Positions 266 to 59,069 of a DNA stretch of 64,000 bases are shown here, in pieces. The notes beneath the pieces are model-generated. The model saw nothing but the letters and a program-made list of their open reading frames with translations, had not been told where the DNA came from and did no database searches. Position 1 is the stretch's first letter. Each line of letters begins with the position of its first letter. The DNA comes from Brachynemurus nebulosus (Eukaryota; Arthropoda; Insecta; Neuroptera; Myrmeleontidae): assembly GCA_035578155.1 (NCBI GenBank), contig JAPWDM010000008.1, positions 3,307,347 to 3,371,346 on the forward strand, written 5' to 3'. Both the position numbers and the translations under genes were made by a program.

Positions 266-457
266 ATGGAGAATTCGGCCCATGAATGTTTTCATACAAA
301 TAAAATTAAAATGGAGATAGACGAAGTGGATGAACCGGTCCATGAAATTGATCATACATGTAAAATTAAAGTGGAGAAAGATCGAGTGTCACAAGAAAAT
401 ATTAGTTTGATGGATAAAAAAAACTTTACGGACTTACAACAGCAAAATATAAAACTG
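266..457 (+). CDS. Zinc-finger gene A, exon 1 (acidic N-terminal segment)
   Basis: This exon encodes the first 64 residues, starting MENSAHECFH, of a C2H2 zinc-finger protein. The start is chosen because MENS/MEKS opens all six paralogues in this window and follows a conserved A-rich leader. The segment has no zinc finger. It is acidic and holds two I-K-x-E motifs (IKMEIDEVDE and IKVEKDRV), which fit the SUMO-attachment consensus followed by acidic residues. The exon ends in ...QNIKL with the donor GTAAGT after a complete codon, so the intron is phase 0. The same boundary is found in genes C to F. The acceptor is 4.5 kb away because transposons fill the intron (the intron of gene C is 73 nt). 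This N-terminus is the shortest of the family. The exon joins and family membership are clear; the SUMO role is inference. Confidence 0.8.
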
Positions 458-600
458 GTAAGTACTAAATAAGTATATTAGATTTGAATCATAAAGAATA
501 AGGGTGGATTTTCGCTCTAAAGAGTTTTGAGTTTAACTCATATGGCACAGAATACATTGGAATAGGTACATCTTATGCATTTCATGCCAGTATTACAAAT

Positions 601-878
601 ATAACCACAGAGCACTGAATCAAACATATTAACATATGTTTCCTAGAAATAACACAGGCATTAAATTTTGAAGCATGACTCCATTTTAGTAAGCCTAACT
701 TGTAACCACGGAGACTTGTTTATAAATATTAGATAAACCATTAAATTAATAGTATGACCGCCATTAAAGTAATCCCATCAGTCAGTTTTTTTGCTCACAT
801 CAGTCAATTTTTTTGCTTCAATTTCTTAATGTATTTGTAATACATAACATTCTCTCTAGTCGATTCTCTCCTCAATGA
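601..878 (-). mobile_element. 250-bp interspersed repeat, copy 1 (in intron of gene A)
   Basis: Read on the minus strand, this segment matches two others at 15053-15298 and 28365-28595. Similarity stops abruptly near CATTGAGG at one end and near CAGTGCTC at the other, which marks the element edges. It contains no reading frame. It is best described as a short non-autonomous element (MITE or SINE-like). I see no clear target duplication, so the class is open. Confidence 0.6.
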
Positions 879-1315
879 ATATAACAACGGTGAGACCTAA
901 ATAAAAATTTAAATATTTATTATATTTGTCAGAGCTGTCACTAGTAACTAAGGTAAAAGACCCGGTAATTGACCCTGGCCCAGTTTCTGAACTTTTCAAT
1001 TTTGTTATAAAAGGTTCATTCCATTTACGAATACTGAATTCTATTGAATCGTTCAAATAATATTGGAATTGATTATAATGCGCAAGTACAGTTCAAGATT
1101 TCAAATAAATTTTAGAATAATGAACTGTAAAAGGAACGCTTTTTAAAAATCTGAATTGTATTTAAGTTCAAAATAATTTCCACAGATGTCCTCACGAATA
1201 ATATGATGTAGGGATATTTCTTTACTAGTGACTTTTAAATTTTTGATATTCGATTTCAACAATTTCATAATTATAAAACCCCCTTTTATAAATTATCAGA
1301 ATACTTTTTTTTAAA

Positions 1316-2148
1316 ATGGCTAACGACTTTTCTGGTAAGTTTGTGAATACAAGAGAAATTTATTATACATAAATTCGAAAATAACTGAGAAATTCAATTT
1401 TTAGGGGTAGAAGAATTTGTAATTTTAAAAAATACGATGGAGGAAGTTGCTGAAAATGTTTACAACATTGAAAATAAAGATTATTTTATTTGGAATACAA
1501 ATAATACAAAAATATTAATCGATTTTGTTGGTCAAGAAAAACCCAAAGTGGGAAAATCAATTAAAACTACGAAAAATGTGGGAAATAATAGCCAAACTAT
1601 TTTTGGAAAAATACAACATTATTGTAACAGCGAGCAATTGTGAAAACAGATGGAAAGTTCTGGACAGAAATTACAAGGACATTGTTGATAATAAAAAGAA
1701 AACAGGTCGTGGTCGTAAGGATTTCGAATTTTTTAATGACATGCACCAAATTCTTCAAAAAAAGAAAAATGTGTTCCCTGAAATATTATTAGATTCTACA
1801 AATAGTTACGTCAACAACGCAATATCAGAAAATCTCACGGATTTAAATGAAAATCAGAACGCCGGAACAGAAAATCCGAGTACATCAAAAAAACGGAAAA
1901 TTGAGGAAAGTCAATTAGTACCAAAGAAGAAGAAAAAAAGTCGAAACGATGTCTTTATACAAGACAGAGAACATGCTAAACTGTATCGACAAATGAAAGC
2001 AGAAAATTTCAAAAAACGGATAGAAATCCAAGAAAAGAAATTAGTCATCCTTGAAGAAAGAAATAAGTTACTTGAACAGCAAAATGACCTATTAAAACAA
2101 TTGTTAATAACTAGAAGTACCTCTAGTAATAAAATATTTACTGTTTAA
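1316..2148 (+). pseudogene. Harbinger Myb/SANT-like DNA-binding protein, one frameshift
   Basis: In PIF/Harbinger transposons a Myb/SANT-like partner protein helps the nuclease enter the nucleus and bind the element ends. Here a 19-nt first exon (MANDFS) ends at a GTAAGT donor. A 70-nt intron follows, and exon 2 resumes at 1405. The trihelix-type Myb domain runs from ...YFIWNTNNTKILIDFV through KPKVG to WEIIAKLF, CENRWKVLDRNYKDIV and TGRGRKDFEF. Between KPKVG and WEIIA the reading frame shifts by one base near 1553-1560, inside GGGAAAATC, consistent with one extra A. Downstream are a basic nuclear-localisation-like stretch (SKKRKIEE, PKKKKKSRN) and a C-terminal coiled coil rich in E, K and L. 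The stop is at 2146-2148. Apart from the frameshift (which could be a sequencing error) the gene looks complete. Confidence 0.75.
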
Positions 2149-2375
2149 TTCTAAAATAATTTTTTCTTTTTTTATATAATGTAGAATATAATTTTGTTTT
2201 GTGCAATAATAAATATCCTTTTTATTATACTTTTTTGTAATACGTTTTTTATTTATTTGCATACATACATATTTACAAAAAACAAAAAAAGAAAAAAAAC
2301 AATTTACGATCATTTTTACCAGAAAAACATTAAATGAACTGGTTTCTTAATTAATGAAAATGTTATAAATATTAT

Positions 2376-3520
2376 TTAATTTAATATATGTCTAGCAATA
2401 AAATTTCTGAATTCTGTCCCAATGAATTCATCTTCAGCAAATTCTCCTTCTATTTCGTAATCATTGTTACCGTTTACGATGTCTTCAACTTCAAAATTAT
2501 CGTCAATGGCTAAATTGTGAACAACACAGCATGCACGAATAAAATGTGCAATATTGCCCGTATTTCTTAATTTTAAATGGTACAATTGTCTGAATTTTTG
2601 CTTTAAAATAGCAAACGTGTGTTCAATTTTGATCCGGTTTTTTGACAAAAGTTGATTGTATCGTATTTCATGAGGTTGTAAATTGCCACGATTTCTATAG
2701 GGTGTTAATAAGTGCCTTCTGCATGGGTAAGCACTATCTCCTAATATATAATTGTGACCACACTTTTGTGGTAAATTTTGACCCAAAGTTGAAGATCGGA
2801 AAACCCGAGCATCGTGCACTGATCCTGGATATCCTATGAAAATGTCCATAATTTTCTTGTTATGATTGCATACTGCCTGCATCTAAAATATTACAAAAAG
2901 AAAATTTATGTATTATAACTAAAGTAGTTAATTTTATCATTTATTACCTGCATGGAATAAAATCCTTTTCGATTTAGATATGAATCTGAATCTATTTCAG
3001 GCTTATCTAATTTAATATGAGTACCGTCAATACAACCAATTGCACCTGGAAATCCATTTCTAGCGAAAAAGTTTTCTGATTCAATTTTTTCTTCAGGGCT
3101 AAACCAAGTAATTACATCTCTACTTAAATTACTTAAAAATAAAATTGTCCTCTTTAATATACGAAAAAGAGAACTTCCTGTAACACCAAACCGATCTGAA
3201 ACATCTCTAAAAGAAGCAGTTTGATGACCGCTAAACCATAGAAACATCAAAATATGTTTTTCTGCTGTAATTTTTTCTCTCCCGACATTTGATACAGGAT
3301 AATATTCCGACTGTGAAAATTGTTCTGTTAAATTATTCACAACACCTCTCGATACTCGGAAATGTTCCATGAAATCCTTATCGGAATATAATGGAACAAT
3401 TTCTTCCACAAAATTTTCAATTTTCTGGCGTAGTTGTCGTTCAATAAATATTTCATTAACAACAAATTCGTCGTCGCTTTCAGATGAACTGTTATCTGAC
3501 GAAAATGATGTATCCGACAT
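2376..3520 (-). CDS. Harbinger DDE transposase (nuclease)
   Basis: This two-exon gene encodes about 359 residues: exon 1 is 3520-2948 (191 codons) and exon 2 is 2882-2376. The 65-nt phase-0 intron has donor CAG|GTAATA and acceptor TTTTAG, and joining gives ...GFYSMQ followed by MQAVCNHN. The protein belongs to the DDE_Tnp_4 family of PIF/Harbinger nucleases, which cut and paste the element. A helix-turn-helix-like segment (SFRDVSDRFGVTGSSLFRIL) lies around residues 103-122. The catalytic triad is visible: D165 in GCIDGTHI, D240 in LGDSAY, and E278 in RIKIEHTFAILKQKFR; the family HDARVF motif is at about residue 215. The N-terminus is Ser/Asp-rich. No stop or frameshift is seen, so it may still be active or only recently silenced. 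The neighbour on the opposite strand is its Myb-like partner. Confidence 0.9.
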
Positions 3521-4999
3521 TATAAAAATAACTAAAAATATATATTTACGTTAAAAAATGAATTATAAACAAATTACAAACTTTTAATTGCAATACCCAA
3601 TAACAACACACGTGCTTATTACAAATCTTAACGATTGCTGTTGACCGATAATACAGGAGTTCTTCAAACAAGAATTTCAAATACTTGTAAATCACTTCGA
3701 ACTGATTAGAACCGTTCGAATGTGAATTTGGATTTAAAATTTAGAAAATGGAATAAAGAACGGTGAATAACCAGTATTTCAAATACTAGAATTCGTATAA
3801 TGGAACAGTGATTTCACAAACAGTTCTTTCTGCGCATGCTTATAAATAATGAACTGTTCAATGCTTCTAAATGGAATGAACCTAATTTAATAAAAAAACT
3901 ATATTTTAAATAAGAAAAAAAATAATTTCTTAATTTAAAGTAATCTTTTCTGTGTCTAATGAACAGCAATTTAAAAAGTGTAGAATATATTAACTAAATA
4001 AAAAAAATTTTTAAGTTTAAAATGTGTGTAAAAACTATTTTTTTGGTAGTTTCCTAACAGTTTATGTTACAAAGTACTCATTTTGATCTGTGCAATATTC
4101 ATCATGTAAGTATGAAAACTTAATTAAAAATATATGAGCAGGTTAATATTTGTTTAAAATTTATTTTAAAATATTTATAAAATACCCTAGAATGATTTTT
4201 ATTATTGAAATATGAGGGTCGATTACTAGGCTCACTTCTAAAGTGGTATGGCCCAATTAAATTCTAACCAGTTTTTGTTAGTTACTTTGTTATTTATAGT
4301 TATCTTCGATTAGTTTTTGTTATTTTCATAACGTATATAACATTAAACATTTATTTTTATCAATAAAAAATTATTTATAAATTAAAATTAAAAAAACTGT
4401 ATTTTTAAATTTAAGGATCAGAAACTAGGCCACTGTCAGGGTCAAAAACTGTCACATGAGAAATTTTGAAGGTCAGAAACTGGGTCCTTTTTGTCAATTT
4501 TTAAAACATTAAATTATTAATTCAATTCAAATAATTATTTTACTTGTATGACTTTATTTTGAAAGCCATAAACTAGTTGATAAAATTATTAATTGTCTCT
4601 TAAGTTTAAAATTATATTTATTACTGTCGTTTAACCTCAGCCGTCACTCTTAAAAGGTCAGAAACTAGGCCCGTTACCTTAGGCCTACCTATTTTTTTTC
4701 TTTTTAAGCCAGGGCTTCTTAAAATTTTTTCATTTTGTAAGGAATTATTGATTACGTAACAATATAATTTATACATATAAAAAATTTTCGCTATGACCCT
4801 AAGATTTCGCTAAGCGACTCCTAATGGGGTCGCGACACATAGTTTAAAAAGCTCTGTTTTAAACAAAAGGCAGGGGCAACACTTTTTAGGGTGCCTAGGG
4901 CAGCACTTAGGGTAGATCTGGCGCTGGTCCTTATAGACTTTTAACCTTTTCAAATAAAATTATACAAATGTTTTAATTAATGTTCTTACAATATTTTAG

Positions 5000-5962
5000 G
5001 AGTTGAGTGAATCTTTGCTAGATTTAAACAGTTTACACACGGAAATCAAAATTGAAGAAGCTGAAGTAGATGAAGATCATTCGACAGACTTAACAGAACA
5101 TCAGATTGCAAGTGTTGACAAAAAACTATTTCAGTGTGATACATGTAATAAAACATTTACTTATCCAAGTCATTTAAAAACACATGAAAGAATTCATAGT
5201 GGTGAAAAACCATACAAGTGTAATGTATGTTCTAAAACATTTACTACTTTAGGTCATTTAAAAGTACATGAAAGAATACACAGTGGTGAAAGACCATACA
5301 AGTGTAATATATGTTTTAAAACGTTTAGTAATGCAAATGATTTAAAAAGACATGAAAAAATTCACACCGGTGAAAAACCATACAAGTGTAATGTATGTTC
5401 TAAAACATTTAGTGATTCAAGTTATTTAAAAAGACATGAAAAAATTCACAGTGGTGACAAACCATACAAGTGTAATGTATGTTCTAAAACATTTACTGTT
5501 TCAGGTACTTTAAAAACACATAAAATAATACACAGTGGTGAGAAACCATACAAGTGTAATATATGTTCTAAAACATTTAATCATTCAAGTCATTTAAAAA
5601 CACATGAAAGAGTTCATAGTGGTGAAAAACCATACAAGTGTAATACATGTACTAAAACATTTAATCATTCAAGTCATTTAAAAACACATGAAAGAGTTCA
5701 TAGTGGTGAAAAACCATACAAGTGTAATACATGTACTAAAACATTTAATCAATCAAGTCATTTAAAAACACATGAAAGAGTTCATAGTGGTGAAAAACCA
5801 TACAAGTGTAATACATGTACTAAAACATTTAATCAGTTAAATAATTTAAAAACACATGAAAGAGTTCATAGTGGTGAAAAACCATACAAGTGTAATATAT
5901 GTACTAAAACATTTAATCATTTAATTTCTTTAAGAAAACATAAAATATTTCATACTAGATAG
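5000..5962 (+). CDS. Zinc-finger gene A, exon 2 (ten C2H2 fingers)
   Basis: The exon opens at the acceptor ATATTTTAG with GAG TTG AGT (E-L-S-E-S), in phase with exon 1, to give a protein of about 384 residues. A third I-K-I-E motif (EIKIEEAEVDED) lies just before the fingers. Ten C-x2-C-x12-H-x3-H fingers follow, joined by SGEKPY/SGERPY linkers; one linker has the canonical TGEKPY. Fingers 6 to 10 are very similar (NHSSH, NHSSH, NQSSH, NQLNN, NHLIS at the recognition helix), which suggests recent tandem duplication at the C-terminal end. The protein is probably a nuclear, sequence-specific DNA-binding factor. The function of the family is unknown. Transcripts must splice across a 4.5-kb intron holding nested transposons, so expression is uncertain. 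Confidence 0.85.
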   Translation, partial: ELSESLLDLNSLHTEIKIEEAEVDEDHSTDLTEHQIASVDKKLFQCDTCNKTFTYPSHLKTHERIHSGEKPYKCNVCSKTFTTLGHLKVHERIHSGERPYKCNICFKTFSNANDLKRHEKIHTGEKPYKCNVCSKTFSDSSYLKRHEKIHSGDKPYKCNVCSKTFTVSGTLKTHKIIHSGEKPYKCNICSKTFNHSSHLKTHERVHSGEKPYKCNTCTKTFNHSSHLKTHERVHSGEKPYKCNTCTKTFNQSSHLKTHERVHSGEKPYKCNTCTKTFNQLNNLKTHERVHSGEKPYKCNICTKTFNHLISLRKHKIFHTR

Positions 5963-6011: not shown

Positions 6012-7340
6012 ACAATTTTGTGAGTCTTGTGGCGCGTGAAATTACATTACACTCAATGCAATTTCACTACTGATGATGAAAGCGTTGCTCTAGAAACGTA
6101 CACCGAATGTCCCAATTTTATGTACACATACGATTTACTATTAATTCAATATTTAACCCCTTAAGGGATATGGGACATATTTGTCCCAATTTATATTTAA
6201 TTTATATTTTCTTCCTGTCAAAATTGCACCTTCCGGTTGAACAGAAACAGAATATACTCTATATCTATCTGTATTAAAAAAGTATTTTATCTTCTTAATG
6301 TAACAAAATATGTATATCTCTTACTAAAAATATATCTTTCCTTTTTGTTGGACTTTGATCGCTCAAGAATTCTGCGTTTAGATATATTAACTTTTATATG
6401 TATGAAAAGAGTCAGATTTTTATTGAAAGTACACGAATGCCTCACAAAACGGAACATCAAGAAAGGTTTGTCTCTTTCTATGTTACAGTAAGTGAAGCGT
6501 ATATAGGATGTTCAAAATGTACATATATATATAGGTATACATATAAAGGGAATAAAGGTAACATAAGTGTGATAAAAATAAAAAAATAAAAAAGGTTTTT
6601 TACACACCAAATCCGTAATAATAAATGCACATATAAAAATATCACTTTTTTTTAAAGTTAAACATATTCTGTTCAAAACTAAATACACTGCTGCATCACT
6701 AGTTAGACCCCCTACTAGTTGTACCTGCGTGGGAATTTTTTTTATACAAACAATAACATGTTTACAATATTTTTAAACAAAAATCGACAAAAATATATTA
6801 TACAGGATGTGCTTTGCAAATAATTATACTTTACTGTTATAAATTATTTTATTACATAATCACATAAGTAATTAAAACATATTTAACTGGTCTTTTTATG
6901 CATTTAAAAAAAGGAAAACATTGATATTATACACCACACCGCATCATATTAAATAAACAAACAACATACGTATGAAGTGGTCCAACCTAGTATCAATCTA
7001 ATTAATACCTATACCTACATAGACATAGTAGATAATGTTCGAATAATTCAGCTGCTTGCATTTAGCGTGAAAAATATTTTTGTATTTATTTTATAATCCT
7101 GTATTATACCAGGCATCAATTTTATTAAGTCTTAACATTTTAAATACATAATTTTACAATAAAAATTTTAATAATGTTCTTTAGTTACATATTTATAATA
7201 AGTTAATAAAACTTATTAATAAAATATTTGTTGTGGTGTGTTTTTATTATTAAACAATGTATTTAATATGTGTTGTTTTTATATTTTCTCTACGCAGTTG
7301 AAAATTTATAAATTTTAATTTATTTTTAAATACGTATGTA

Positions 7341-8196
7341 AGGTAACGGGCCTAGTTTCTGACCTTTTAAGGGTGACGGCTGAGGTTAAACGACAGTAAT
7401 AAATAAGTTTAAACTTAAGAGACAATTAATAATTTTATCAACTAGTTTATGGCTTTCAAAATAAAGTCATACAATTAAAATAATTATTTGAATTGAATTA
7501 ATAATTTAAATTAATGTTTTAAAAATTGACAAAAAGGACCCAGTTTCTGACCTTCAAAATTTCTCATGTGACAGTCTTTGACCCTGACAGTGGCCTAGTT
7601 TCTGATCCTTAAATTTAAAAATACAGTTTTTTAAAATTTAATTTATAAATAATTTTTTATTGATAAAAATGAATGTTTAATGTTATACGTTATGAAAAAT
7701 AACAAAAACTAATCGAAGATAACTATAAATAACAAAATAACTAACAAAAACTGGTTAGAATTTAATTGGGCCATACCACTTTAGAAGTGAGCCTAGTAAT
7801 TGACCCTCATATTTCAATAATAAAAATCATTCTAAGGTATTTTATAAATATTTTAAAATAAATTTTAAACAAATATTAACCTGCTCATATATTTTTAATT
7901 AAGTTTTCATACTTACATGATGAATATTGCACAAATCAAAATGAGTACTTTGTAACATAAACTGTTAGGAAACTACCAAAAAAATAGTTTTTACACACAT
8001 TTTAAACTTAAAATTTTTTTTTATTTAGTTAATATATTCTAAACTTTTTAAATTGCTGTTCATTAGACACAGAATAGATTACTTTAAATTAAGAATTTAT
8101 TTTTTTTCTTATTTAAAATATAGTTTTTTTATTAATTTATAACAAAGTTGAAAAGTTCAGAAACTGGGCCAGGGTCAATTACCGGGTCTTTTACCT
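7341..8196 (-). mobile_element. 860-bp TA-flanked MITE family, copy 2
   Basis: This full-length copy is in reverse orientation. It starts AGGTAACGGGCC, ends GGGTCTTTTACCT, and has TA on both sides. It aligns along its whole length with the copies at 951-4679, 33038-33898 and 55276-56136 with few differences, so the family spread fairly recently. It has no reading frame and contains the internal GGTCAGAAACTAGG-type words. Confidence 0.9.
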
Positions 8197-8271
8197 TATA
8201 TGCATATAAGATCATCCTATATTGTGCCTTGATAGTTATACTTTAGAGTGAGGTACATATACCAAAGACCC

Positions 8272-10692: not shown

Positions 10693-12047
10693 GAAAAAAA
10701 AAATGGGTGTTTAATTTATTTATTAATTTTTAATAGCCAGTTTAATTATACACCTAAAAATAGTGTTCCGGTATAGGGGATTTTAGGTTAACAATGAAAA
10801 AATAATACACTTTTAACAGTAAAAAAAGGATATAAATAAAAATAAGTAGTTAATTAAAAAAGAAATAAATTAAATACCTAGTAGAAGTTATAAAAATTGT
10901 AAGAGGGTTAAGTTGTGAATTATTTTATAATATTTAAAATAAAAAAAGAACTGTGTATTTAAATAAATAAATTATAATAAAAAAGACGTTGTTTTATTTG
11001 AAGAAATACAAGAAAATATACAAAATTTATACTTATTCATTAATAGAATACATTTGATATTTTTCTAATAAAGGAGAAGTAGTAGCGTGGATAATATAAT
11101 AATATGTAGTTACATTTAACTAAAATATAAACCAAAACTAATCGACTGGTGAAACAATTTTTGGAATCCATTTATCAAGTAATAGAGAAATAGAAGATCA
11201 AAGTTTAAAGCACAATGATAGATTTTCTATTCGCCTGTGACGTCAAACATCTGCACAATCGGACACCGAGTGTCTTTTTTACAATATTTTTTTTAATTAA
11301 TTATATTAAATTACCATGGATTTAATATAATTAATTTTTTATTACATATTTATTAATCTTAAAAAAAGTTCAAAAAATGACATTTCAAAACGTCAAAATA
11401 TTGAATTTGTAAAAAAGATTCAAAATGATCGAATCCATATAATATGTAGTATCCGTAGTAATTAACGTATTGATCGGCTTTATAAAAATTAAAATAAAAA
11501 AAAACTCTTCGTTGTATTTGCAATTCCGTAGAATAAATGACGTCACACATCTGTCTCAAATGAAATTGAAAAGTGAAATTTTAAAGTCCCATAACTGTTA
11601 GTTGTTGAGATATCTTAATTTTCCTTTTACACTTTTCTTTCATTTTGCCTTAATTTTTATTTTCATTCATAAAAAAAAAATTGGTAAACTTCTCTACTGG
11701 GTAACTTTTTGTTGAAGTTTATAATCCAGTTTAGTTCTTACCATTTTATATTTTATACTATACGTCAATAAGGTTTCATTTTTATATGTCAAACTATTAT
11801 TTTCTAGTAAAATAACAAAAATGAATTCATTTATTTTAAAATTATCCTTAATTGTCAAATTTTTCAATGATATAATATTTATTCTACAGACTTTCCAAAA
11901 AAACACTTAATTAATTAAATTAATTTACTATTCATATTTTTTCACTTCCTGATTTTTAACATGACCGTACGTACAACAAGATCAACATAAAAGAATAAAC
12001 TTAGATATATTAAAAAGTTTTGAATTTATACAACTGAACGTACTTTA
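10693..12047. other. AT-rich stretch with no recognisable gene
   Basis: I see no coding region, tandem repeat or element end that I can support. The short frames here lack codon structure and homology cues. Confidence 0.5.
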
Positions 12048-17134: not shown

Positions 17135-18916
17135 CTATGATTTTTCACCACTGTGAATTACTTCATGCCTTCTTAAAGTACTGGATTGATTAAATGTTTT
17201 AGAACACACATTACATTTATATGACCTTTCACCACTATGTATTATTTCATGTCTTTTTAACTGACCTGAAGTAGTAAATGTTTTAGAACACACATTACAT
17301 TCATATGACCTTTCACCACTGTGTATTATTTCATGTGTTTTTAAATGACCTGAAGTAGTAAATGTTTTAGAACATATGTTACATTCGTATGGTTTTTCAC
17401 CACTATGTATTCTTTCATGTTGTTTTAAATTACTTGAAGTAGCAAATGTTTTAGTACATATATTACACTGGTATGGTTTTTCACCACTGTGTAAACTTTC
17501 ATGTCTTTTTAAATGACTTGAAGTAATAAATGTTTTAGTACATATATTACACTGGTATGGTTTTTCACCACGGTGTAAACTTTCATGTCTTTTTAAATGA
17601 CTCGAACTAATGAATGTTTTAGAACACACATTACATTCATATTGCCTTTCACCACTGTGTATCATTTCATGTCGTTTTAAATCAGTTGAAGTAACAAATC
17701 CTTTAGAACATACACTACACTGATATGGTTTTTCACCACTGTGTATCATTTTATGTAATTTTAAAGCATGCGACTGACTAAATGTTTTGGTACATATGTT
17801 ACATTTGTATGGTCTTTCACCACTGTGAGTTCTTTCATGTCTTTTTAAATGACCTGAGTCAGTAAATGTTTTAGTACATATATTACACTGGTATGATTTT
17901 TCACCACTGTGAATTTTTTCATGTGCTTTTAAATAACTCGAACTAATGAATGTTTTAGAACACACATTACATTCGTATGGCCTTTCATCACTGTGAATTT
18001 TTTCATGTCTTTTTAAACCACTTGAAGTAACAAATGCTTTCGAACATACATTACACTGGTATGGTTTTTCACCACTGTGAAATCTGGTATGTTTTCTTAA
18101 ATATCTTGAATCACTAAATGTTTTAAAACATATATTACAAGACAGTTTTTCAAGTCTTTCAGCACTGTGAACTCTTTCATGCATCTTTAAATAATATGCA
18201 GTAGTAAATGTGTAATTACATGTATCACACTGAAATAGTTTTTCGTCAACACTTGCAATCTCATGTTTTGTTAAATCTGTTGAATGTTCTTCATCTACTT
18301 CATCTTCTTCAATTTTCATTTGTAAGTCTGTAAGGTCTTTTTTATCTGTCAAACTATCATTTTCTTGGGCCAATTTAATTGGTTCAAAAACTTTTGTTTC
18401 TGTTGATAACACTAAATTATTTTCAAACGCTTCATCATTTTCCATTTTAATTTCAAATTTACAATCAATTTCATGGCCCGATTCATTCATTTCATCTTTT
18501 TCCACTTTAGTTTCAAATGTGTGAAAATTTTCATGGATCGGTCTAATCACTTCATCTTTCTCCACTTTAATTTCAAATTTACTATCAATTTCATTGATTG
18601 ATTGATTCATTTCATTTTTTTCCACTTTAATTTCAAATGTGTGGAAATTTTCATGGCTCGGTCTAATCACTTCATCTTTCTCCACTTTAATTTCAAATTT
18701 ACTATTAATTTCATAGCCCGATTCATTCATTTCATTTTTTTCCACTTTAATTTCAAATGTGTGAAAATTTTCATGGCTCGGTCTAATCAGTTCATCTTTC
18801 TCCACTTTAATTTTATTATTTGTATGGTCAGTTTCATGGACCGGTTCATTCACTTCATCTTTATCTACTTTAATTAAAACTGTATGAAAACCGAATTCAT
18901 TGACCGAATTCTCCAT
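17135..18916 (-). CDS. Zinc-finger gene B, intronless, 13 C2H2 fingers
   Basis: A single 593-residue frame starts MENSVNEFGF. Residues 1 to about 220 are acidic and hold about nine I/M/T-K-x-E/D motifs (IKVDKDEV, four of the EIKVEK type, MKIEEDEV and others). The module from [11 protein letters not shown] to the next EIKVEKDEV is repeated about three times with period near 38 residues. Thirteen C2H2 fingers follow, with SGEKPY/SGERSY linkers; the linker between fingers 1 and 2 is irregular (AERLEKLS). In its paralogues a phase-0 intron separates the acidic exon from the fingers. Here ...LTDLQ runs straight into MKIEEDEV, so the intron and about 20 flanking codons are gone in frame. This is a deletion, not a clean retrocopy. 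The protein is a putative nuclear DNA-binding factor of unknown target. Confidence 0.9.
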   Translation of the reverse strand: MENSVNEFGFHTVLIKVDKDEVNEPVHETDHTNNKIKVEKDELIRPSHENFHTFEIKVEKNEMNESGYEINSKFEIKVEKDEVIRPSHENFHTFEIKVEKNEMNQSINEIDSKFEIKVEKDEVIRPIHENFHTFETKVEKDEMNESGHEIDCKFEIKMENDEAFENNLVLSTETKVFEPIKLAQENDSLTDKKDLTDLQMKIEEDEVDEEHSTDLTKHEIASVDEKLFQCDTCNYTFTTAYYLKMHERVHSAERLEKLSCNICFKTFSDSRYLRKHTRFHSGEKPYQCNVCSKAFVTSSGLKRHEKIHSDERPYECNVCSKTFISSSYLKAHEKIHSGEKSYQCNICTKTFTDSGHLKRHERTHSGERPYKCNICTKTFSQSHALKLHKMIHSGEKPYQCSVCSKGFVTSTDLKRHEMIHSGERQYECNVCSKTFISSSHLKRHESLHRGEKPYQCNICTKTFITSSHLKRHESLHSGEKPYQCNICTKTFATSSNLKQHERIHSGEKPYECNICSKTFTTSGHLKTHEIIHSGERSYECNVCSKTFTTSGQLKRHEIIHSGERSYKCNVCSKTFNQSSTLRRHEVIHSGEKS

Positions 18917-28662: not shown

Positions 28663-29950
28663 ATGGAGAAATCAGTCCACGAAAATTTTCATATATTTGG
28701 AATTAAAATGGAGAAAAATGAAGTGAATGAACCTATCCATAATATTGTTGATCATACATTTGAAATTAAAGTTGAAAAAGATGAAGTGGATGAGAACAAT
28801 TTAGGATTAACAACAGAAACTAAAATTTTTGAACCAACTAAATTGTCACACGAAAATAATAGTTTAACGAATAAAAAAACTCTCGCGGATTTACAAAAGC
28901 AAAATATAAAATTGGTAAGTACTAAATTTCAATTGTAAATTTTCGAATAAAATTTTGCAAATATTAATAAGGTTTATAACATTTTAGGAGTTGAGTGAAT
29001 ATATGATAGATTTAAATAGCTTACATATGGAAATTAAAATCGAAGAAGATGAAATAGATGAAGATCATTGGACAGATTTAACAAACCATAAAATTGCGGG
29101 TGTTGGCAAAAAAATAATTCAGTGTGATACATGTAATAAAACATTTACTCGTTCAAATGATTTAAAAAGACATAAAATAATTCACAGTGGTGAAAAACCA
29201 TACAAGTGTAATGTTTGTTCGAAAACATTCATTAATTTAAGTCATTTAAAAAGACATGAAAGAATTCACAGTGGTGAAAAACCACACAAATGTAATATAT
29301 GTACTAAAACATTTACTTATTCAAGTGATCTAAGAAAACATGAAAGAATTCACAGTGGTGAAAAACCATACAAGTGTAATGTATGTAGTAAAACATTTAC
29401 TACTTCAAGTTATTTAAAAACACATGAAAGAATTCACAGTGGTGAAAAGCCATATGAATGTAGTAAATGTTCTAAAACATTTAATCAGTCATGTGCTTTA
29501 AAAATACATGAAAAAATTCACAGTGGTGAAAAACCATACCAGTGTAATATATGTACTAAAACATTTAAACATTCAAGTGCTTTAAAAATACATGAAAAAA
29601 TTCACAGTGTTGAAAAACCATACCAGTGTAATATATGTACTAAAACATTTATTCAGTCAAGTCATTTAAAAACACATGAAATAATTCACAGTGATGAAAA
29701 ACCACACGTGTGTAAAATATGTTCTAAAACTTTTAATCAGTCATTTCATTTAAAAAGACATGAAAGAATTCACAATGGTGAAAAACCATACAAGTGTAAT
29801 GTATGTTCTAAAACATTTAACCAAGTAAGTAATTTAAAAACACATGAAAGAACTCATAGCGGTGAAAAACCTTATAAATGTAATAAATGTTCGAAAGCAT
29901 TTGCTAGTTCAAGTCATTTAAGGTATCATAAAAAAATTCATATCGGTTAA
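28663..29950 (+). CDS. Zinc-finger gene C, two exons, ten C2H2 fingers
   Basis: Exon 1 (28663-28914, 84 codons, starting MEKSVHENFH) is acidic with IKMEKNEV and IKVEKDEV motifs. The donor GTAAGT follows a full codon, the intron is 73 nt, and exon 2 starts at 28988 with GAG TTG AGT (E-L-S-E-Y), giving about 404 residues. A third motif, [12 protein letters not shown], precedes the fingers. Ten intact C-x2-C-x12-H-x3-H fingers follow, mostly with SGEKPY linkers; two linkers vary (SVEKPY, SDEKPH). This is the least damaged member: no stop, no frameshift, a compact intron. Exon 2 is exactly as long as in gene A (963 nt) and the 3' flanks match, so A and C are sisters. A 250-bp repeat lies just upstream instead of the 5' flank shared by B, D, E and F. 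Likely a nuclear DNA-binding protein with unknown target. Confidence 0.9.
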
Positions 29951-32551: not shown

Positions 32552-33037
32552 TTTACCCAACTTTAATTACACAGCCACAAAATTGCTATATTTGTTAATT
32601 TTGAGGGCGTTTTTTGAGGTTACGGCCGAATCCAGATGTACTGGAATAAAACTGACCCCAAATTCGGATTCAGCGACCCCAAAAACATATAGTACATATA
32701 GTGAGACCTCCAGGTCAGAAAAATTTTTTTTTTGTGTGTGGCTGTGTTATTAGTACTTTATTTAATTCCATTTTGAAAATCAAACGAGATCGTACGTATT
32801 ACGAATTCTCACGTGAGGTGGATGTGTTCAAAAAAATAGATTAAATGCTGATGAAAAAAAAAATGTTTTTCTACACCTGTTGAAGAACACACTCATTACA
32901 TATCCGTTAATTGTTGAGAAAGTTAGGCATTATTCAAAGGTGTGGAGGAATGATCATTACTCACTACCTTTTTGACCAATGAAATCGCCGTATTAACCAT
33001 TATTCACTGGGCTAGCTTTTGTTTTGTGTATAATATA

Positions 33038-33898
33038 AGGTAAAAGACCCGGTAATTGACCCTGGCCCAGTTTCTGAACTTTTCAACTTTGTTATAAATT
33101 AATAAAAAAACTATATTTTAAATAAAAAAAAAAATAAATTCTTAATTTAAAGTAATCTATTCTGTGTCTAATGAACAGCAATTTAAAAAGTTTAGAATAT
33201 ATTAACTAAATAAAAAAAAAATTTTAAGTTTAAAATGTGTGTAAAAACTATTTTTTTGGTAGTTTCCTAACAGTTTATGTTACAAAGTACTCATTTTGAT
33301 CTGTGCAATATTCATCATGTAAGTATGAAAACTTAATTAAAAATATATGAGCAGGTTAATATTTGTTTAAAATTTATTTTAAAATATTTATAAAATACCT
33401 TAGAATGATTTTTATTATTGAAATATGAGGGTCAATTACTAGGCTCACTTCTAAAGTGGTATGCCCCAATTAAATTCTAACCAGTTTTTGTTAGTTATTT
33501 TGTTATTTATAGTTATCTTCGATTAGTTTTTGTTATTTTTCATAACGTATATAACATTAAACATTCATTTTTATCAGTAAAAAATTATTTATAAATTAAA
33601 TTTTAAAAAACTGTATTTTTAAATTTAAGAATCAGAAACTAGGCCACTGTCAGGGTCAAAAACTGTCACATGAGAAATTTTGAAGGTCAGAAACTGGGTC
33701 CTTTTTGTCAATTTTTAAAACATTAATTTAAATTATTAATTCAATTCAAATAATTATTTTACTTGTATGACTTTATTTTGAAAGCCATAAACTAGTTGAT
33801 AAAATTATTAATTGTCTCTTAAGTTTAAACTTATATTTATTACTGTCGTTTAACCTCAGCCGTCACTCTTAATAGGTCAGAAACTAGGCCCGTTACCT
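33038..33898 (+). mobile_element. 860-bp TA-flanked MITE family, copy 3
   Basis: A full-length copy with TA on both sides, AGGTAAAAGACCCGG at the left and CCCGTTACCT at the right. It interrupts an older repeat shared with 53440-54330. Confidence 0.9.
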
Positions 33899-34009
33899 TA
33901 CGTATCAATTTTTAATTTTAAATATGTTGCGTATTAACGTCTTAGTAAACAAAATAATGTGAATTTTATTTTGGTCGTTTCCATAGATACATATACAAAA
34001 AATTAATGA

Positions 34010-37686: not shown

Positions 37687-38978
37687 CTACTTACATTTGT
37701 ATGATTTTTCACTACTGTGAATTTTTTCATGCTTTTTTAAAATACTTAACCGAGTAAATTTTTTAGAACAAATATTACACTGATACGGTTTTTCACCACT
37801 GTGTATTATTTCATGTCTTTTTAAAACACCGAATTGGTTAAATGTTTTTGAACACACATTACACTGATATGGTTTTTCACCACTATGAATTCTTTCATGT
37901 GTTTTTAAATCATTTGAACGAGTAAATGTTTTAGAACATATGTTACATTTGTATGGTCTTTCACCACTGTGTATTCTTTCATGTACTTTTAAATGACCTA
38001 TAGTAGTAAATGTTTTAGAACATACGTAACACTGATATGGTTTTTCACCACTGTGTATTCTTTCATGTTGTTTTAAATGACTTGAAGTAGTAAATGTTTT
38101 AGTACATATATTACACTTGTATGGTTTTTCACCACTGTGTATTCTTTCATGTTGTTTTAAATGACTTGAAGTAGTAAATGTTTTAGTACATATATTACAC
38201 TTGTATGGTTTTTCACCACTGTGTATTCTTTCATGTTGTTTTAAATGACTTGAAGTAGTAAATGTTTTAGTACATATATTACACTTGTATGGTTTTTCAC
38301 CACTGTGAACTCGTTCATGTTTTTTTAAATCACTTGACTGAATAAATGTTTTAGTACATATATTACAATGATATGGTTTTTCACCACTGTGTATTCTTTC
38401 ATGTATTTTTAAACTTTCTTTTCGAGTAAATGTTTTATTACATGTATCAGACTGATATCGTTTTTTGTCAACACTTGCAATCAGATGTTTTATTAAATCT
38501 GTTGAATGATCTTCATCTACTTCATCTTCTTCAATTTTTATTTCCGTATGTAAACTGATTAAATCTGACAAAGATTCACTCAACTCCTAAAATATTATTA
38601 TACATTATATTTTGATTAATTGGCATAATTTTATTCTGGTATTTATAAAACAAATTTGATACTTACCAGTTTTATATTTTGCTCTTGTAAGTCTGTAAGG
38701 TTTTCTTTATTTGTCAAACTATTATTTTCTTGGGCCAATTTAAGTGGTTCAAAAACTTTTGTTTCTGTTGATAACACTGAATTATTTTCAAACGCTTCAT
38801 CTTTTTCAACTTTAATTTCAAATTTACAATCAATTTCATGGCCCGATTCATTCATTTCATCTTTCTCTACTTTAATTTCAAATGTGTGAAAATTTTCATG
38901 GCTCGGTCTAATCACTTCATCTTTCTTCACTTTAATTAAAACTTTATGAAAATCGATTTCACTGATCGAATTCTCCAT
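37687..38978 (-). CDS. Zinc-finger gene D, two exons, truncated array
   Basis: Exon 1 (38978-38667, 104 codons) starts [10 protein letters not shown] and carries IKVKKDEV (a lost motif, K in place of E) and two EIKVEKDE motifs. The intron is 80 nt (donor GTAAGT). Exon 2 (38586-37687) starts E-L-S-E-S and adds [12 protein letters not shown]. The first finger has lost its first cysteine ([10 protein letters not shown] instead of the usual CDTC), so it should not hold zinc. Eight intact fingers follow; fingers 3, 4 and 5 are identical (TTSSH helix, CNICTKTF). The frame stops in the next finger at YKCK because of an 8-bp insertion; two more fingers lie downstream out of frame. The predicted protein is about 403 residues. 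It may still be functional with a shorter array. The 5' flank continues homologous to gene F but is split by transposons. Confidence 0.85.
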
Positions 38979-42276: not shown

Positions 42277-42974
42277 AGGTTCATTCATATCTACAGACAC
42301 TGAACGTCACAGACACGAAATTTTCAAAAGTATTCATATATACAGACAATTAGCAGACAGACACAGACAGTAGATACCGTAGATACTATACGTATAGCAC
42401 ATATAGTATGTATCAGTGAATTACAAAAATTAAATTGTAGCAAATCTGACAACGTAGATTTATACTGAAGATTTTTCCGAAATTGCGCTATTATTAGAAG
42501 AGGAAAAATTTCCTTTCTTGCTCCATACTTCTGTTGATTATCGCCAAATTTCTTATCAGTGTGATTGTGGAGAAATGTACATAACCTAATAAATTCGATT
42601 AAATGTTTGTTATTCAGACCTTATATAATTAACAGAAAATATTTATTTTTTAACAAATTCGATTAATTTTTCGTTATTTATACTTCATAAAACGAATAAA
42701 ATGAAAGTTTATAAATAAATTCTAGGAATTTTGTTTGTACGTTTCGAAACATGCATTCATATTAGCTGCGCAAAGTCAATAGACGCGTTCCAGCACAGAC
42801 AAAAAAATTCTTCTCAAAAATACTGTGCGGACACTGTCTGTCACTGTACGTGTCTGTGCGCTTACGTTACGATATAATATGAATACACCCATAAGAAAAG
42901 CATTAAACAATATTTGTCGTGTCTGGCACGATACGTGTCTGTTACGTTTAGTATCTGTAGCTATGAATGTACCT
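42277..42974. mobile_element. Harbinger-type MITE, uninterrupted copy
   Basis: The ends AGGTTCATTCATATCTACAG and complement match 39085-41388, in inverted orientation to it. The flanks are ATA and TTA, an imperfect 3-bp duplication. Its body supplies the empty site for the transposon at 39164-40767. A shortened relative lies directly to its left (about 42085-42275). Confidence 0.8.
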
Positions 42975-48982: not shown

Positions 48983-50097
48983 TCAACACCATTTCACGGT
49001 AATACAACTATACGGTTTTTCACCACTGTGAAGTCTCTCATGATTTTTCAAATCCGTTGAAGTAGTAAGTGTTTTAGTACACACGTTACATTTGTATGGT
49101 CTTTCATCACTGTGGAATATTTTATGCAATTTTAAATTACGTGAAGTAGTAAATGTTTTAGAACAAATATTACACTGATATGGTTTTCCATCAGTGTGAA
49201 TTTTTTTATGTGTTTTTAAATCACTTGAACGAGTAAATGTTTTACAACAAATATTACACTGATATGATTTTCCACCACCGTGAATTTTTTCATGTCCTTT
49301 TAAATGACCCAACTGTTTAAATGTTTTAGGACACACATTACATTTGTATGGCTTTTCACCACTGTGTACTCTTTCATGTATTCTTAAATTACCTAAAGTA
49401 GTAAATGTTTTAGAACACACATTACATTTATAAGGTTTTTCACCACTGTGAATTATTTCATGTGTTTTTAAATTATCCTTTCGATTAAATGTTTTATTAC
49501 ATGTATCACACTGAAATAATTTTTGGCCAACATTTGCAATATGATGTTTTGTTAAATCTCTCCAATGATCTTCATCTACTTCATCTTCTTCAATTTTAAT
49601 TTCCATACGTGAACTATTCGAATCTATCAAAAATTCGCTCCACTTCTAAAATATTATTATATATTGTATTTTGATTAATTTGCATAATTTTATTCTGTTA
49701 CTTTTAATCCAAATCTAATACTTACCAGTTTTATATTTTGCTCTTGTAAGTCTGTAAGGTTTTTTTTATCTGTCAAACTACTATTTTCTTGGGCCAATTT
49801 AATTGGTTCAAAAACGTTTGTTTCTGTTGATAACACTGAATTATTTTCAAACACTTCATCTTCCTCCACTTTAATTTCAACTTCACAATCAATTTCATGG
49901 CCCCATTCATTTATTTCATCTATTTCCTCTTTAATTTTAAATGTGTGAAAATTTTCATGTCTCGGTCTAGCCACTTCATCGTTCTCCACTTTAATTTTAT
50001 TTGCATGGTCAGTTTCATGGGCCGGTTCATTCACTTCATCGTTCTCCACTTTAATTAAAACTGTATGAAAACCGAATTCATTGACCGAATTCTCCAT
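48983..50097 (-). CDS. Zinc-finger gene E, two exons, truncated by repeat DNA
   Basis: Exon 1 (50097-49726, 124 codons) starts MENSVNEFGF and holds four I-K-x-E motifs (two IKVENDEV, IKEEIDEI, IKVEEDEV), each followed by acidic residues. The intron is 80 nt with donor GTAAGT. Exon 2 (49645-48983) starts K-W-S-E-F, a variant of the usual E-L-S-E-S, and adds [12 protein letters not shown]. Six fingers follow; finger 6 has Leu for the conserved Phe (CTKTLTTS). A seventh begins (EKPYSC) and then runs into unrelated DNA, giving ITVKWC and a stop. That DNA (TACCGTGAAATGG, then TTGACTCGGTCAC) matches an element end at 43937-43962, so an insertion or rearrangement removed the rest of the array. The predicted protein is about 344 residues, possibly functional but reduced. 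Confidence 0.85.

Positions 50098-55196: not shown

Positions 55197-55275
<79 letters not shown>
55197..55275. repeat. (TA)n microsatellite
   Basis: A pure TA tract ending exactly where the 860-bp MITE begins. Confidence 0.95.
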
Positions 55276-55282
<7 letters not shown>

Positions 55283-56136
55283 AAAGACCCGGTAATTGAC
55301 CCTGGCCCAGTTTCTGAACTTTTCAACTTTGTTATAAATTAATAAAAAAACTATATTTTAAATAAGAAAAAAAATAAATTCTTAATTTAAAGTAATCTAT
55401 TCTGTGTCTAATGAACAGCAATTTAAAAAGTTTAGAATATATTAACTAAATAAAAAAAAATTTTTAAGTTTAAAATGTGTGTAAACACTATTTTTTTGGT
55501 AGTTTCTTAACAGTTTATGTTACAAAGTACTCATTTTGATTTGTGCAATATTCATCATGTAAGTATGAAAACTTAATTAAAAATATATGAGCAGGTTAAT
55601 ATTTGTTTAAAATTTATTTTAAAATATTTATAAAATACCTTAGAATGATTTTTATTATTGAAATATGAGGGTCAATTACTAGGCTCACTTCTAAAGTGGT
55701 ATGGCCCAGTTAAATTCTAACCAGTTTTTGTTAGTTATTTTGTTATTTATAGTTATCTTCGATTAGTTTTTGTTATTTTTCATAACGTATTACATTAAAC
55801 ATTCATTTTTATCAATAAAAAATTATTTATAAATTAAATTTTAAAAAACTGTATTTTTAAATTTAAGGATCAGAAACTAGGCCACTGTCAGGGTCAGAAA
55901 CTGTCACATGAGAAATTTTGAAGGTCAGAAACTGGGTCCTTTTTGTCAATTTTTAAAACATTAATTTAAATTATTAATTCAATTCAAATAATTATTTTAC
56001 TTGTATGGCTTTATTTTGAAAGCCATAAACTAGTTGATAAAATTATTAATTGTCTCTTAAGTTGAAACTTATATTTATTACTGTCGTTTAACCTCAGCCG
56101 TCACTCTTAAAAGGTCAGAAACTAGGCCCGTTACCT
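55276..56136 (+). mobile_element. 860-bp TA-flanked MITE family, copy 4
   Basis: Full-length, AGGTAAAAGACCCGG to CCCGTTACCT, inserted at the edge of a (TA)n tract. It is very close to copy 3 at 33038-33898. Confidence 0.9.
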
Positions 56137-56261
56137 TATATGTGTGGTAAAGAAATTTTGTAATCTGCAAAAATATGCGTGTTTCCAAACTTTTGAACGG
56201 TAGTGTAATTATTTATGTAAGTATTATTATTATTACATATAATATAAATCATGTTGTACGC

Positions 56262-56366
56262 AAGCAAGGTCGATAATGGTGTTAACTATTTTACCCAGTC
56301 CATATTATATCGCCATCGAACTGATGGTGAAAACTATAACGTGAAAACTGTAACACTGTGAGTTCT
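56262..56366 (-). pseudogene. Ancestral 3' tail of gene F, displaced
   Basis: On the minus strand AGAACTCACAG continues as GTTACAGTTTTCACG and further flank that matches the region just beyond gene B (16970-17075). It is the original end of the gene F coding region and 3' flank, cut off from the gene by the insertion at 56367-56628. Confidence 0.65.
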
Positions 56367-56410
56367 AATATTAATAGATTTGAGCGTTACTTTATGGTAT
56401 TCCATATTTG

Positions 56411-56629
56411 TAAATAATAAACAAATACTTTACTTTGCAAAATACCACGTTTATTTTTGAAACTGTGACATTATTGTTTCGAACCGTTAGTTCATTTTCA
56501 AACAGAATAAAAATTATAGTCCATAATTTTTATTCTGCTTGAAAATGAACTAACGGTTCGAAACAATAATGTCACAGTTTCAAAAATAAACGTGGTATTT
56601 TGCAAAGTAAAGTATTTGTTTATTATTTA
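56411..56629. mobile_element. Foldback element inserted in the 3' end of gene F
   Basis: Arms of about 107 bp (TAAATAATAAACAAATACTT inward to GAATAAAAATTAT, and complement) surround a spacer of about 5 bp. The insertion, including about 45 bp of non-palindromic DNA, is bracketed by a 12-bp direct repeat, ACTGTGAGTTCT, at 56355-56366 and 56629-56640. The arm supplies the final Lys codon and the stop codon of gene F. Confidence 0.85.
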
Positions 56630-59069
56630 CTGTGAGTTCTTTTATGTCTTTTGAAATTTCTTGAATCATTAAATGTTTTTGAACATATATTACACTGATA
56701 TGGTTTTTCACCAGTATGGATTCTTTTATGTGTTTTTAAATCAGTTAAACGAGTGAATGTTTTAAAACATATATTACACTGATATGGTTTTTCACCAGTA
56801 TGGATTCTTTCATGTGTTTTTAAAACACTTGAACGACTAAATGTTTTAGAACACAAATTACATTCATATGGTCTTTCACCACTATGAATTGTTTCATGTG
56901 CTTTTAAAATACTTAGCTTATTAAATGTTTTAGTACATACGTTACACTTGTACGGTCTTTCACCACTGTGTATTCTTTCATGTGTTTTTAAATTACTTGA
57001 AGTAGTAAATGTTTTAGTACATATATTACACTTGTATGGTCTTTCACCACTGTGTATTCTTTCATGTGTCTTTAAATGAGCTAAATCACTAAATGTTTTA
57101 GTACATATATTACACTGATATGGTCTTTCACCACTATGAACTCTTTCATGTCTTTTTAAATCACCTAAAATAGTAAATGTTTTAGTACATATGTTACACT
57201 TGTATGGTTTTTCACCACTGTGAATTCTTTCATGTGTTTTTAAAATACTTAGCTTATTAAATGTTTTAGAACATACGTTACACTTGTATGGTCCTTCACC
57301 ACTGTGAATTATTTCATGTGTTTTTAAAGCACTTGAAGTAGTAAATGTTTTAGTACACACATTACACTAATATGGTTTTTCACCACTGTGTATTCTTTCA
57401 TATGTTTTTAAAGCACTTGAAGTAGTAAATGTTTTAGTACACACATTACACTGATATGGTTTTTCACCACTGTGTATTCTTTCATGTCTTTTTAAAGCAC
57501 TGGATTGGTTAAATGTTTTAGAACACACATTACACTTGTGTGGTCTTTCACCACTATGAATTATTCCATGTATTTTTAAAATACTTAGTTGATTAAATGT
57601 TTTAGTACATATATTACACTGATATGGTCTTTCACCACTATGAACTCTTTCATGTCTTTTTAAATTACCTAAAATAGTAAATGTTTTAGTACATATGTTA
57701 CACTTGTATGGTTTTTCACCACTGTGAATTCTTTCATGTGTTTTTAAAATACTTAGCTTATTAAATGTTTTAGAACATACGTTACACTTGTATGGTCCTT
57801 CACCACTGTGAATTATTTCATGTGTTTTTAAAGCACTTGAAGTAGTAAATGTTTTAGTACACACATTACACTGATATGGTTTTTCACCACTGTGTATTCT
57901 TTCATGTGTTTTTAAAGCACTTGAAGTAGTAAATGTTTTAGTACACACATTACACTGATATGGTTTTTCACCACTGTGTATTCTTTCATGTCTTTTTAAA
58001 GCACTGGATTGGTTAAATGTTTTAGAACACACATTACACTTGTGTGGTCTTTCACCACTATGAATTATTCCATGTATTTTTAAAATACTTAGTTGATTAA
58101 ATGTTTTAGTACATATATTACACTGATATGGTCTTTCACCACTATGAACTCGTTCATGTTTTTTTGAATCACCTGAAGTAGTAAATGTTTTAGTACACAT
58201 ATTACACTGATATGGTTTTTCACCACTGTGTATTCTTTCATGTCTTTTTAAAGCACTGGATTGGTTAAATGTTTTAGAACACACATTACACTTGTGTGGT
58301 CTTTCACCACTATGAATTCTTTCATGTGTTTTTAAAATACTTAGCTGATTAAATGTTTTAGTACATACGTTACACTTGTATGGTTTTTCACCACTGTGTA
58401 TTCTTTCATGTGTTTTTAAATTCTTTAAAGTAGTACATGTTTTAGAACATACATAACATTGATATGGTTTTTCACCACTGTGAATAATTTCATGTATTTT
58501 TAAATTTCTTGAAGTACTAAATGTTTTGTTACATGTATCACACTGAAATAGTTTTTGGTCGACACTTGCAATCTGATTTTCTGTTAAATCTGTTGAATGA
58601 TCTTCATCTACTTCATCTACTTCAATTTTTATTTCCGTATGTAAACTATTTAAATCTGGCAAAGATTCACTCAACTCCTAAAATATTATAATATATTGTA
58701 TTTTGATTAATTTGCATAATTTTATTCTGTTATTTTTAATCCAAATCTAATACTTACCATTTTTATATTTTGCTCTTGTAAGTCTGTAACGTTTTGTTTA
58801 TCTGACAAACTATTATTTTCTTGCGGAAATTTAAGTGGTTCAAAGACTTCTGTTTCTGTTGATAACACTGAATTATTTTCAAGCACTTCATCTTCCTCCA
58901 CTTTAATTTCAAATTTACAATCAATTTCATCGGCTGATTCATTCATTTCATCTTTCTCTATTTTAATTTTAAATGTGTGAAAATTTTCATGGCTCGGTCT
59001 AATCACTTCATCTTTCTCCACTTTAATTAAAACTGTATGAAAACCGATTTCACTGACCGAATTCTCCAT
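56623..59069 (-). CDS. Zinc-finger gene F, two exons, 23 fingers with in-frame TAG
   Basis: Exon 1 (59069-58758, 104 codons, MENSVSEIGF) has IKVEKDEV, IKIEKDEM and IKVEEDEV motifs. The 80-nt intron has donor GTAAGT. Exon 2 starts at 58677 (E-L-S-E-S) and adds EIKIEVDEVDED. Fourteen fingers run to an amber codon at 57367-57369, where a linker Gln codon (CAG) has become TAG; nine more fingers continue in the same frame to 56623. Fingers 6-11 and 12-17 are a 504-bp tandem duplication (helices NQLSI, NQSSA, TTSSA, TTSSA, NKLSI, TILG). Finger 2 has Cys for the usual Phe (KTCTTLKN), and finger 14 has Tyr for its first His (KTYERIH). Without readthrough the protein has about 540 residues; the full frame is about 787 codons. 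The final THSK and stop come from a foldback insertion. It may be a recent pseudogene or a shortened functional gene. Confidence 0.8.

Follow-up and report, generated by a model that had tools for sequence, protein, structure and literature searches.

The window considered here, that is, the whole stretch of DNA that was analysed, comprises 64,000 nucleotides of contig JAPWDM010000008.1 of the neuropteran Brachynemurus nebulosus (positions 3,307,347 to 3,371,346) and is AT-rich, with a GC content of 0.25-0.35 over 4-kb steps. Between 266 and 59069 it carries six genes for C2H2 zinc-finger proteins, which follow one another as A (+), B (-), C (+), D (-), E (-) and F (-) and the N-termini of which are built of repeated units. 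These units bear a motif that resembles the sites at which SUMO, a small protein modifier commonly linked to gene silencing, is attached. A cluster of six genes had been put forward in an earlier note on this DNA, and six gene models could indeed be built, the cluster being bounded by the start codon of A at one end and by that of F at the other. Five of the six genes share a common structure, in which exon 1 encodes the N-terminus and a phase-0 GT-AG intron separates it from exon 2, which encodes a short acidic lead followed by the fingers. The intron measures 73-80 nt in C, D, E and F and 4542 nt in A, and is missing from B. The short introns, the base composition and the best-covered insect match would by themselves weakly suggest an insect host, perhaps a hemipteran. 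The translated models carry 6-13 fingers each, joined mostly by a (S/T)GE(K/R)PY linker.

Gene A begins with an exon 1 that runs from the start codon to the GT donor (266..457) and holds two repeat units, with their motifs at 305-388; its intron (458..4999) has been enlarged by nested transposons, and exon 2 (5000..5962) provides a third motif, IKIEEAEV (5045-5068), and 10 C2H2 fingers. Gene C is similarly built, with two repeat units in exon 1 (28663..28914; motifs at 28702-28788), an intron of 73 nt, and an exon 2 (28988..29950) that encodes the motif IKIEEDEI (29033-29056) and 10 fingers. On the reverse strand, D, E and F each have an intron of 80 nt. Exon 1 of D (38667..38978) contains three repeat units, the first of them degenerate (IKVK), with motifs at 38793-38936, and its exon 2 (37687..38586) encodes IKIEEDEV (38518-38541) and eight pattern-matching fingers after a damaged first one. 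Gene E has four units in exon 1 (49726..50097; motifs at 49852-50055) and, in exon 2 (48983..49645), the motif IKIEEDEV (49577-49600) and six fingers. Gene F has three units in exon 1 (58758..59069; motifs at 58884-59027), and its exon 2 extends to an in-frame TAG (57367..58677), with the motif IKIEVDEV (58609-58632) and 13 pattern-matching fingers. Gene B is a single exon on the reverse strand (17135..18916) encoding 593 amino acids and 13 fingers; its array of eight 20-codon units (18428..18874) has a tandem period of 60 nt and a higher-order period of 120 nt (87% matched), and a ninth motif, MKIEEDEV (18296..18319), is the counterpart of the exon-2 motif of the other genes. The loss of its intron corresponds to a genomic deletion that also removed six exon-1 codons and 15 exon-2 codons, the frame being still open. 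The possibility that B is a retrocopy was considered and rejected, the junction being a wider deletion and not an exact removal of the intron; a short AA overlap is found at this junction. The N-terminal frames are open in all six genes; the splice sites are intact in the five that have an intron, and the fusion in B is in frame.

The first exon consists of tandem 20-codon units: A and C have two of them, D and F three, E four and B eight. One additional motif per gene comes from exon 2 or, in B, from its fused equivalent. The strict form of the motif, Psi-K-x-E (Psi being a hydrophobic residue), is found in 25 of the 28 motif units (22 exon-1 units and six exon-2 or B-equivalent ones) and reaches 29 occurrences in the six N-termini when four others, located at exon junctions, are added. 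These four, of the form IK(L/M)E, are created only by splicing in A (457/5000), C (28914/28988), D (38667/38586) and F (58758/58677); the junction motif has been lost in E (IKLK) and was removed by the deletion in B. They were absent from the earlier note, whose motif counts otherwise agree with ours (three in A and in C, three plus the degenerate IKVK in D, four in F, five in E and nine in B, two of the latter being degenerate, IKVD and TKVE) and whose description of a tandem, expandable array is supported by a number of exon-1 units ranging from 2 to 8 across the genes. When the residues of each N-terminus were shuffled, 0.47-1.42 strict motifs were expected against 4-7 observed, and the observed number was matched in at most 0.85% of shuffles (2000 per gene); this test overstates the significance because the units are duplicates, and the contrast within the unit is the better test. 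The negatively charged SUMO motif (NDSM), as published, reads Psi-K-x-E/D-x1-x2 followed by an acidic residue at x3 or x4 (PMC5727262). Psi-K-x-(E/D) is present in 20 of the 22 exon-1 units and in all six exon-2 motifs, and the x3 site is Glu in 21 of the 22 and in six of six, so that the fit to this motif, which had been suggested from the letters, is obtained through the x3 acid.

Within the repeat, the motif core is preferentially retained. Conservation of the motif lysine was measured between repeat units and between paralogues. All 22 exon-1 units, which were collected by a pattern demanding lysine, have the lysine; the residue preceding it is Ile in 21 of them and the residue two positions after it is Glu in 20. 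Pairwise pN/pS amounts to 0.05 for K and E and 0.11 for Psi, K and E together, as against 1.23 for the 13 non-motif columns; the three columns that follow the motif Glu give, as a class, 1.22, with both a low pN (0.127) and a low pS (0.105). A tree was built with the core columns left out; of the 91 amino-acid steps on it, Psi, K and E account for 3, a number equalled or undercut by 5 of 1140 column triples. A five-column core, composed of Psi, K and E together with D/N at +5 and E at +6, the last two chosen after inspecting the conservation of the units, has six steps compared with 85 in the other 15 columns and is the single lowest of 15504 column sets. The N-terminal segments encoded by exon 2 show a dN/dS of 0.17-0.61 in nine of ten gene pairs and of 1.18 in the D-F pair.

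No known effector domain was recognised beside this array in the proteins scanned. Pfam was run on the whole gene B protein and, for A, C and D, on the N-terminus: the best 25 of the 40 families matched by B all peak within the fingers, from residue 259 onwards, A gave one match and C three, all far below the cut-offs, and D none. The absence of ZAD, KRAB, BTB and SCAN remarked upon earlier is consistent with this result, none of them appearing in the N-termini of A, C and D or among the best 25 of 40 families of B. In this same material, neither KRAB (PF01352), which would place the genes among the KRAB-ZNF, nor ZAD (PF07776), which would place them among the ZAD-ZNF, was found, and none of the six gene models has a cysteine-rich N-terminus. 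A protein search with the N-terminus, as recommended in the earlier note, was run on a set of 5.8 billion proteins and returned no relative, with none of 7664 candidates at E 0.01 and none of 439 at E 10, by a procedure that detects only relatives sharing exact 5-residue words and a similar length. AlphaFold, supplied with the B N-terminus and the six paralogues, gave a mean pLDDT of 29.4, a value that, with six sequences, cannot separate disorder from a shortage of data.

The finger arrays have diversified at the positions that contact DNA. Among 65 full 28-codon fingers, out of 69 matching the pattern and including those located beyond the stop of F, 54 have distinct letters at -1, 2, 3 and 6, and no other of the 28 positions varies as much as -1, +2, +3 and +6. 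Their pN/pS reaches 2.99, compared with 0.72 for 11 other positions (excluding the zinc ligands and the residue pair between the cysteines) and 0.36 for the linker. The fingers compared are paralogous, and these values therefore demonstrate a diversification of recognition, in the sense of the fast-evolving fingers previously postulated, and do not constitute a branch-specific test. The ratio of contact to other entropy (1.90-3.06 in the cluster) is covered by the values of 83 KRAB or SCAN proteins (1.11-4.45), and the contact entropy is therefore KRAB-like but not distinctive.

Signs of decay are found throughout the cluster. The in-frame TAG of F follows the 13th pattern-matching finger, and beyond it another nine fingers lie in the same frame (56623..57366), outside the translated model. 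The array of E ends early, after six fingers, and no finger was detected downstream of its stop in the three frames checked. In D, the first finger has lost its first Cys (SDTC), and downstream of the stop (37687) lie another finger and the beginning of the next in a different frame, from which it can be deduced that this array was once longer. Shorter finger-like remnants, out of frame, directly follow the stop codons of A (5962) and B (17135). A remnant of a seventh copy (11718..11805, reverse strand) comprises the end of an exon 1 and the donor region, 77-78% like F and D, with a broken frame. With the fingers masked, D and F share 92% identity over 632 nt (38457-39088 and 58548-59179), a stretch that takes in about 110 nt ahead of the start codon, and E and F share 89% over 481 nt. 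The damage, the remnants and these identities indicate that the cluster is young and turning over.

We propose, as a reading whose chances we place close to even, that these genes form a young, lineage-specific cluster of polydactyl C2H2 proteins, the effector of which would be a probably disordered, tandem array of NDSM acceptor sites and not a folded domain. The N-terminal array may thus stand in for the role that KRAB plays in vertebrates. According to this hypothesis, the finger array would recognise a DNA sequence and bring the N-terminal array there, and Ubc9, aided by a PIAS-type ligase, would then put SUMO on one or several of the motif lysines. The SUMO groups could jointly draw proteins with SUMO-binding motifs, for example the SetDB1 arm of heterochromatin formation, leading to the silencing of the bound site, for which repeats and transposons would be the most plausible targets. 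The gain or loss of 60-nt units would tune the SUMO load, and selection on the contact residues would retune the target. SUMO attachment, repression and transposon targets are features that we infer and do not observe. The functional parallel with KRAB clusters drawn in the earlier note accordingly stands in part, for the layout (an effector exon, a finger exon, a tandem cluster and decayed copies), for the motif core and for the diversification of the contacts.

Several known systems can be compared with this cluster. Tetrapod KRAB-ZNF clusters share with it an effector exon preceding the finger exon, the clustering and the diversification of contact residues, and differ by the presence of KRAB, which was seen neither in the N-termini of A, C and D nor among the best 25 of 40 families of B. 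By its working, the cluster could be considered KRAB-like without being a KRAB family, its putative effector array being the novel part. The nearest architectural parallel, compared by description, is the FiNZ-ZNF family of cyprinids. FiNZ sequences may also carry several Psi-K-x-E. Like the cluster, FiNZ genes are described as having a separate exon for a short, Glu-rich N-terminal segment, followed by a finger exon, and as being lineage-restricted (PMC10547256). The same report mentions positive selection on the fingers and leaves the silencing mechanism unknown; the FiNZ is there a single 28-residue segment (PMC10547256), whereas the segment found here is repeated two to eight fold. The ZF271-like/APEZ genes of Hemiptera (pea aphid, Oncopeltus) are also similar, with long arrays of short-linker fingers, disrupted copies, no KRAB and, as described, tandem clusters of 4-8 genes (PMC6444547). 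The present genes show the features described for APEZ, namely many tandem fingers with a penta-peptide linker, clustering, and no other domain on the scanned proteins. Only fingers are reported for the hemipteran genes, the silencing partner being left open (PMC6444547), whereas in the present genes a motif array makes up the part outside the fingers. According to the same source, insects have no direct KAP-1 orthologue and other partners are called for in finger expansions (PMC6444547). Silencing by KRAB-less finger families being described as an open question (PMC6444547), the motif array offers a concrete hypothesis, and SUMO arrays would, if it is true, provide insect finger expansions with their missing silencing arm. 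Among the titles and abstract openings listed in literature searches, none describes a tandem SUMO array on a family of finger proteins. Domain libraries are likely to overlook such an array because it consists of a short motif in probably disordered sequence.

A series of observations weighs against the proposed reading and has to be set beside its rivals. The first concerns composition. Charge-swapped decoys are frequent in the six N-termini (13 Psi-E-x-K and 19 E-x-K-Psi), and the statement that the motif position is never arginine is partly built in, because the pattern that finds the units demands lysine. The exon-1 units follow each other without gaps at 20- or 21-residue steps, and therefore no lysine-less unit was skipped inside an array, although one could have escaped detection at an array edge. 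As a rival explanation, the N-terminus could be a low-complexity, disordered sequence acting as an ordinary acidic activation domain, in which the Psi-K-x-E appearance is a by-product of composition. The content of Asp and Glu in the N-termini (22-27%), the lack of a confident AlphaFold structure (pLDDT 29.4 with six sequences) and the abundance of both the E-x-K and K-x-E orders in the repeat are in agreement with it. Activation domains, for their part, need no fixed lysine, and here the lysine is invariant among units while the flanking acidic and hydrophobic positions drift. Furthermore, the decoys mostly overlap the motif itself (FEIK, EIKV and similar; 13 of 13 Psi-E-x-K and 16 of 19 E-x-K-Psi), which leaves Psi-R-x-E as the sole independent decoy, and its count in the six N-termini is zero. 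We consider this composition-based explanation improbable.

The second group of adverse points concerns selection. Whole exon 1 shows a dN/dS of 0.81-1.33 between D, E and F; the nine motif codons carry 1, 1 and 0 replacement changes in the three pairs formed by these genes, too few for a proof at the level of the gene; repeat units and paralogues share descent, such that their counts are not independent; and the finger arrays are damaged in several genes. A neutral minisatellite in decaying genes, the units of which would resemble each other by recent duplication only, would account for an exon-1 dN/dS near 1 overall, as well as for the internal stop of F, the shortened E, the out-of-frame finger remnants of A, B and D and the dead seventh copy. 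This explanation appears decidedly improbable to us. Columns of the same age differ strongly, with six steps in the five core columns and 85 in the 15 others, the six N-terminal frames have remained open, with intact splice sites in five genes and an in-frame fusion in B, and the exon-2 segments have a dN/dS of 0.17-0.61 in 9 of 10 pairs (1.18 in D-F).

The remaining adverse points concern function and come from published systems. The proposed action of the array resembles that of the fly protein Bonus, for which N-terminal SUMO is reported to be required for silencing and to promote the link with SetDB1 (PMC10672805). In the same report, a SetDB1 pull-down of Bonus recovered mostly the unmodified form, which is far more abundant, and Bonus carries one site on a TIF1 cofactor (PMC10672805), in contrast to an array on a DNA-binding protein. 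Among fly factors, repressive domains are reported to be no richer in SUMO sites than other fragments, which weakens any simple rule equating the motif with a repressor, and a human screen cited in that work implicates SUMO sites in repressive domains (PMC9890238). In Hemiptera, repeat content is described as uncorrelated with the expansion of finger families (PMC6444547). It may be, although we regard it as unlikely, that the sites are real SUMO sites used for localisation, for synergy control of activation or for turnover by SUMO-targeted ubiquitin ligases, and not for transposon silencing. The conservation of the motif is compatible with any use of SUMO, titles in the literature connect the synergy control motif, SUMO and zinc fingers, and the fly survey just mentioned (PMC9890238) points in the same direction. 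The combination of an expandable tandem array, contact-diversifying fingers and turnover resembles instead the repressor families described as tracking repeats (PMC10547256).

The frequency of Psi-K-x-E was also determined in other finger proteins, in the best 120 of 7863 finger matches to D, split by their Pfam labels; having been drawn with a motif-bearing query, this sample may lean towards the motif, which has to be counted with the adverse points. In 32 proteins without KRAB, SCAN or ZAD (7400 N-terminal residues), 57 Psi-K-x-E were found compared with 11.2 in shuffled sequences, a roughly 5x excess, the decoys amounting to 8 Psi-R-x-E, 11 Psi-E-x-K and 6 E-x-K-Psi. In 83 KRAB or SCAN proteins (25326 residues), the figures are 51 and 37.0, or 1.4x, with 14, 27 and 25 decoys respectively, and in five ZAD proteins 8 and 1.6. 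At least four motifs occur in 5 of the 32 proteins of the first group and in none of the 83 of the second (Fisher P 0.0013, a value that ignores relatedness). These five, from the moth Cydia (P0002), the adelgid Adelges (P0012), the horseshoe crab Limulus (P0042), the hagfish Myxine (P0010) and the bony fish Scleropages (P0099), are comparable to the cluster in having 4-10 N-terminal Psi-K-x-E ahead of the finger array and no KRAB, SCAN or ZAD in Pfam; the Adelges and Cydia proteins also repeat larger blocks. Four of them matched the query at 48-51% identity over 62-66% of its length, a coverage similar to that of KRAB matches, and the adelgid protein covered 93% and may have been favoured. 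The Adelges match was examined as a homologue of the N-terminus and ruled out beyond the motif, the full-length search being finger-driven: hhalign gave a probability of 1.8% and an E of 0.027 over 18 motif residues, and the best BLASTP match had an E of 1.7. The likeness of its N-terminus, the only one compared, looks convergent because none was found outside the motif. The motif excess in other KRAB-less finger proteins suggests a possible generality, and it is conceivable, with rather less than even likelihood, that SUMO acceptor arrays are a recurrent, convergent stand-in for KRAB across animal finger families devoid of KRAB, SCAN and ZAD. The effector would then be domain-free and grow by short motif units, a form of which this cluster might, with the same reserve, be the most explicit.

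The transposon-rich setting ascribed to the cluster was recovered in the form of a Harbinger-type element and four copies of a short repeated element. The former, assigned to the PIF/Harbinger type from Pfam, occupies 1012..3883 inside the intron of gene A and is bounded by 16-nt terminal inverted repeats (AGGTTCATTCCATTTA). It contains a long open reading frame of the Myb/SANT-like type (1519-2148, forward strand; Pfam) and, on the reverse strand, a transposase split over two open reading frames matching Pfam DDE_Tnp_4 at 2376-2882 and, weakly, at 2906-3550. This element sits within a copy of the short repeated element, itself in the intron, forming a nested arrangement. The four window copies of the short element (33033..33904, forward; 7335-8201, reverse; 55268-56138, forward; and about 950-1011 plus 3884-4696, forward, split by the Harbinger-type element) are about 0.87 kb long and 94-98% identical, with inverted ends and TAAGGTAA at their termini. 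The short element is probably non-autonomous, and its copies represent a recent burst. Long TA runs adjoin two of the four copies. An Rfam scan of the window gave 0 matches at the gathering threshold.

Other repeats were observed in the window. Two 178-nt blocks at 26165-26538, 100% identical and spaced by 196 nt, correspond to a very recent tandem duplication. An inverted pair of about 0.63 kb (40768-41389 and 42276-42904, 88% identity) lies where the window, taken in 4-kb steps, has its highest GC content, and a 48-nt tandem repeat is located at 40247-40427.

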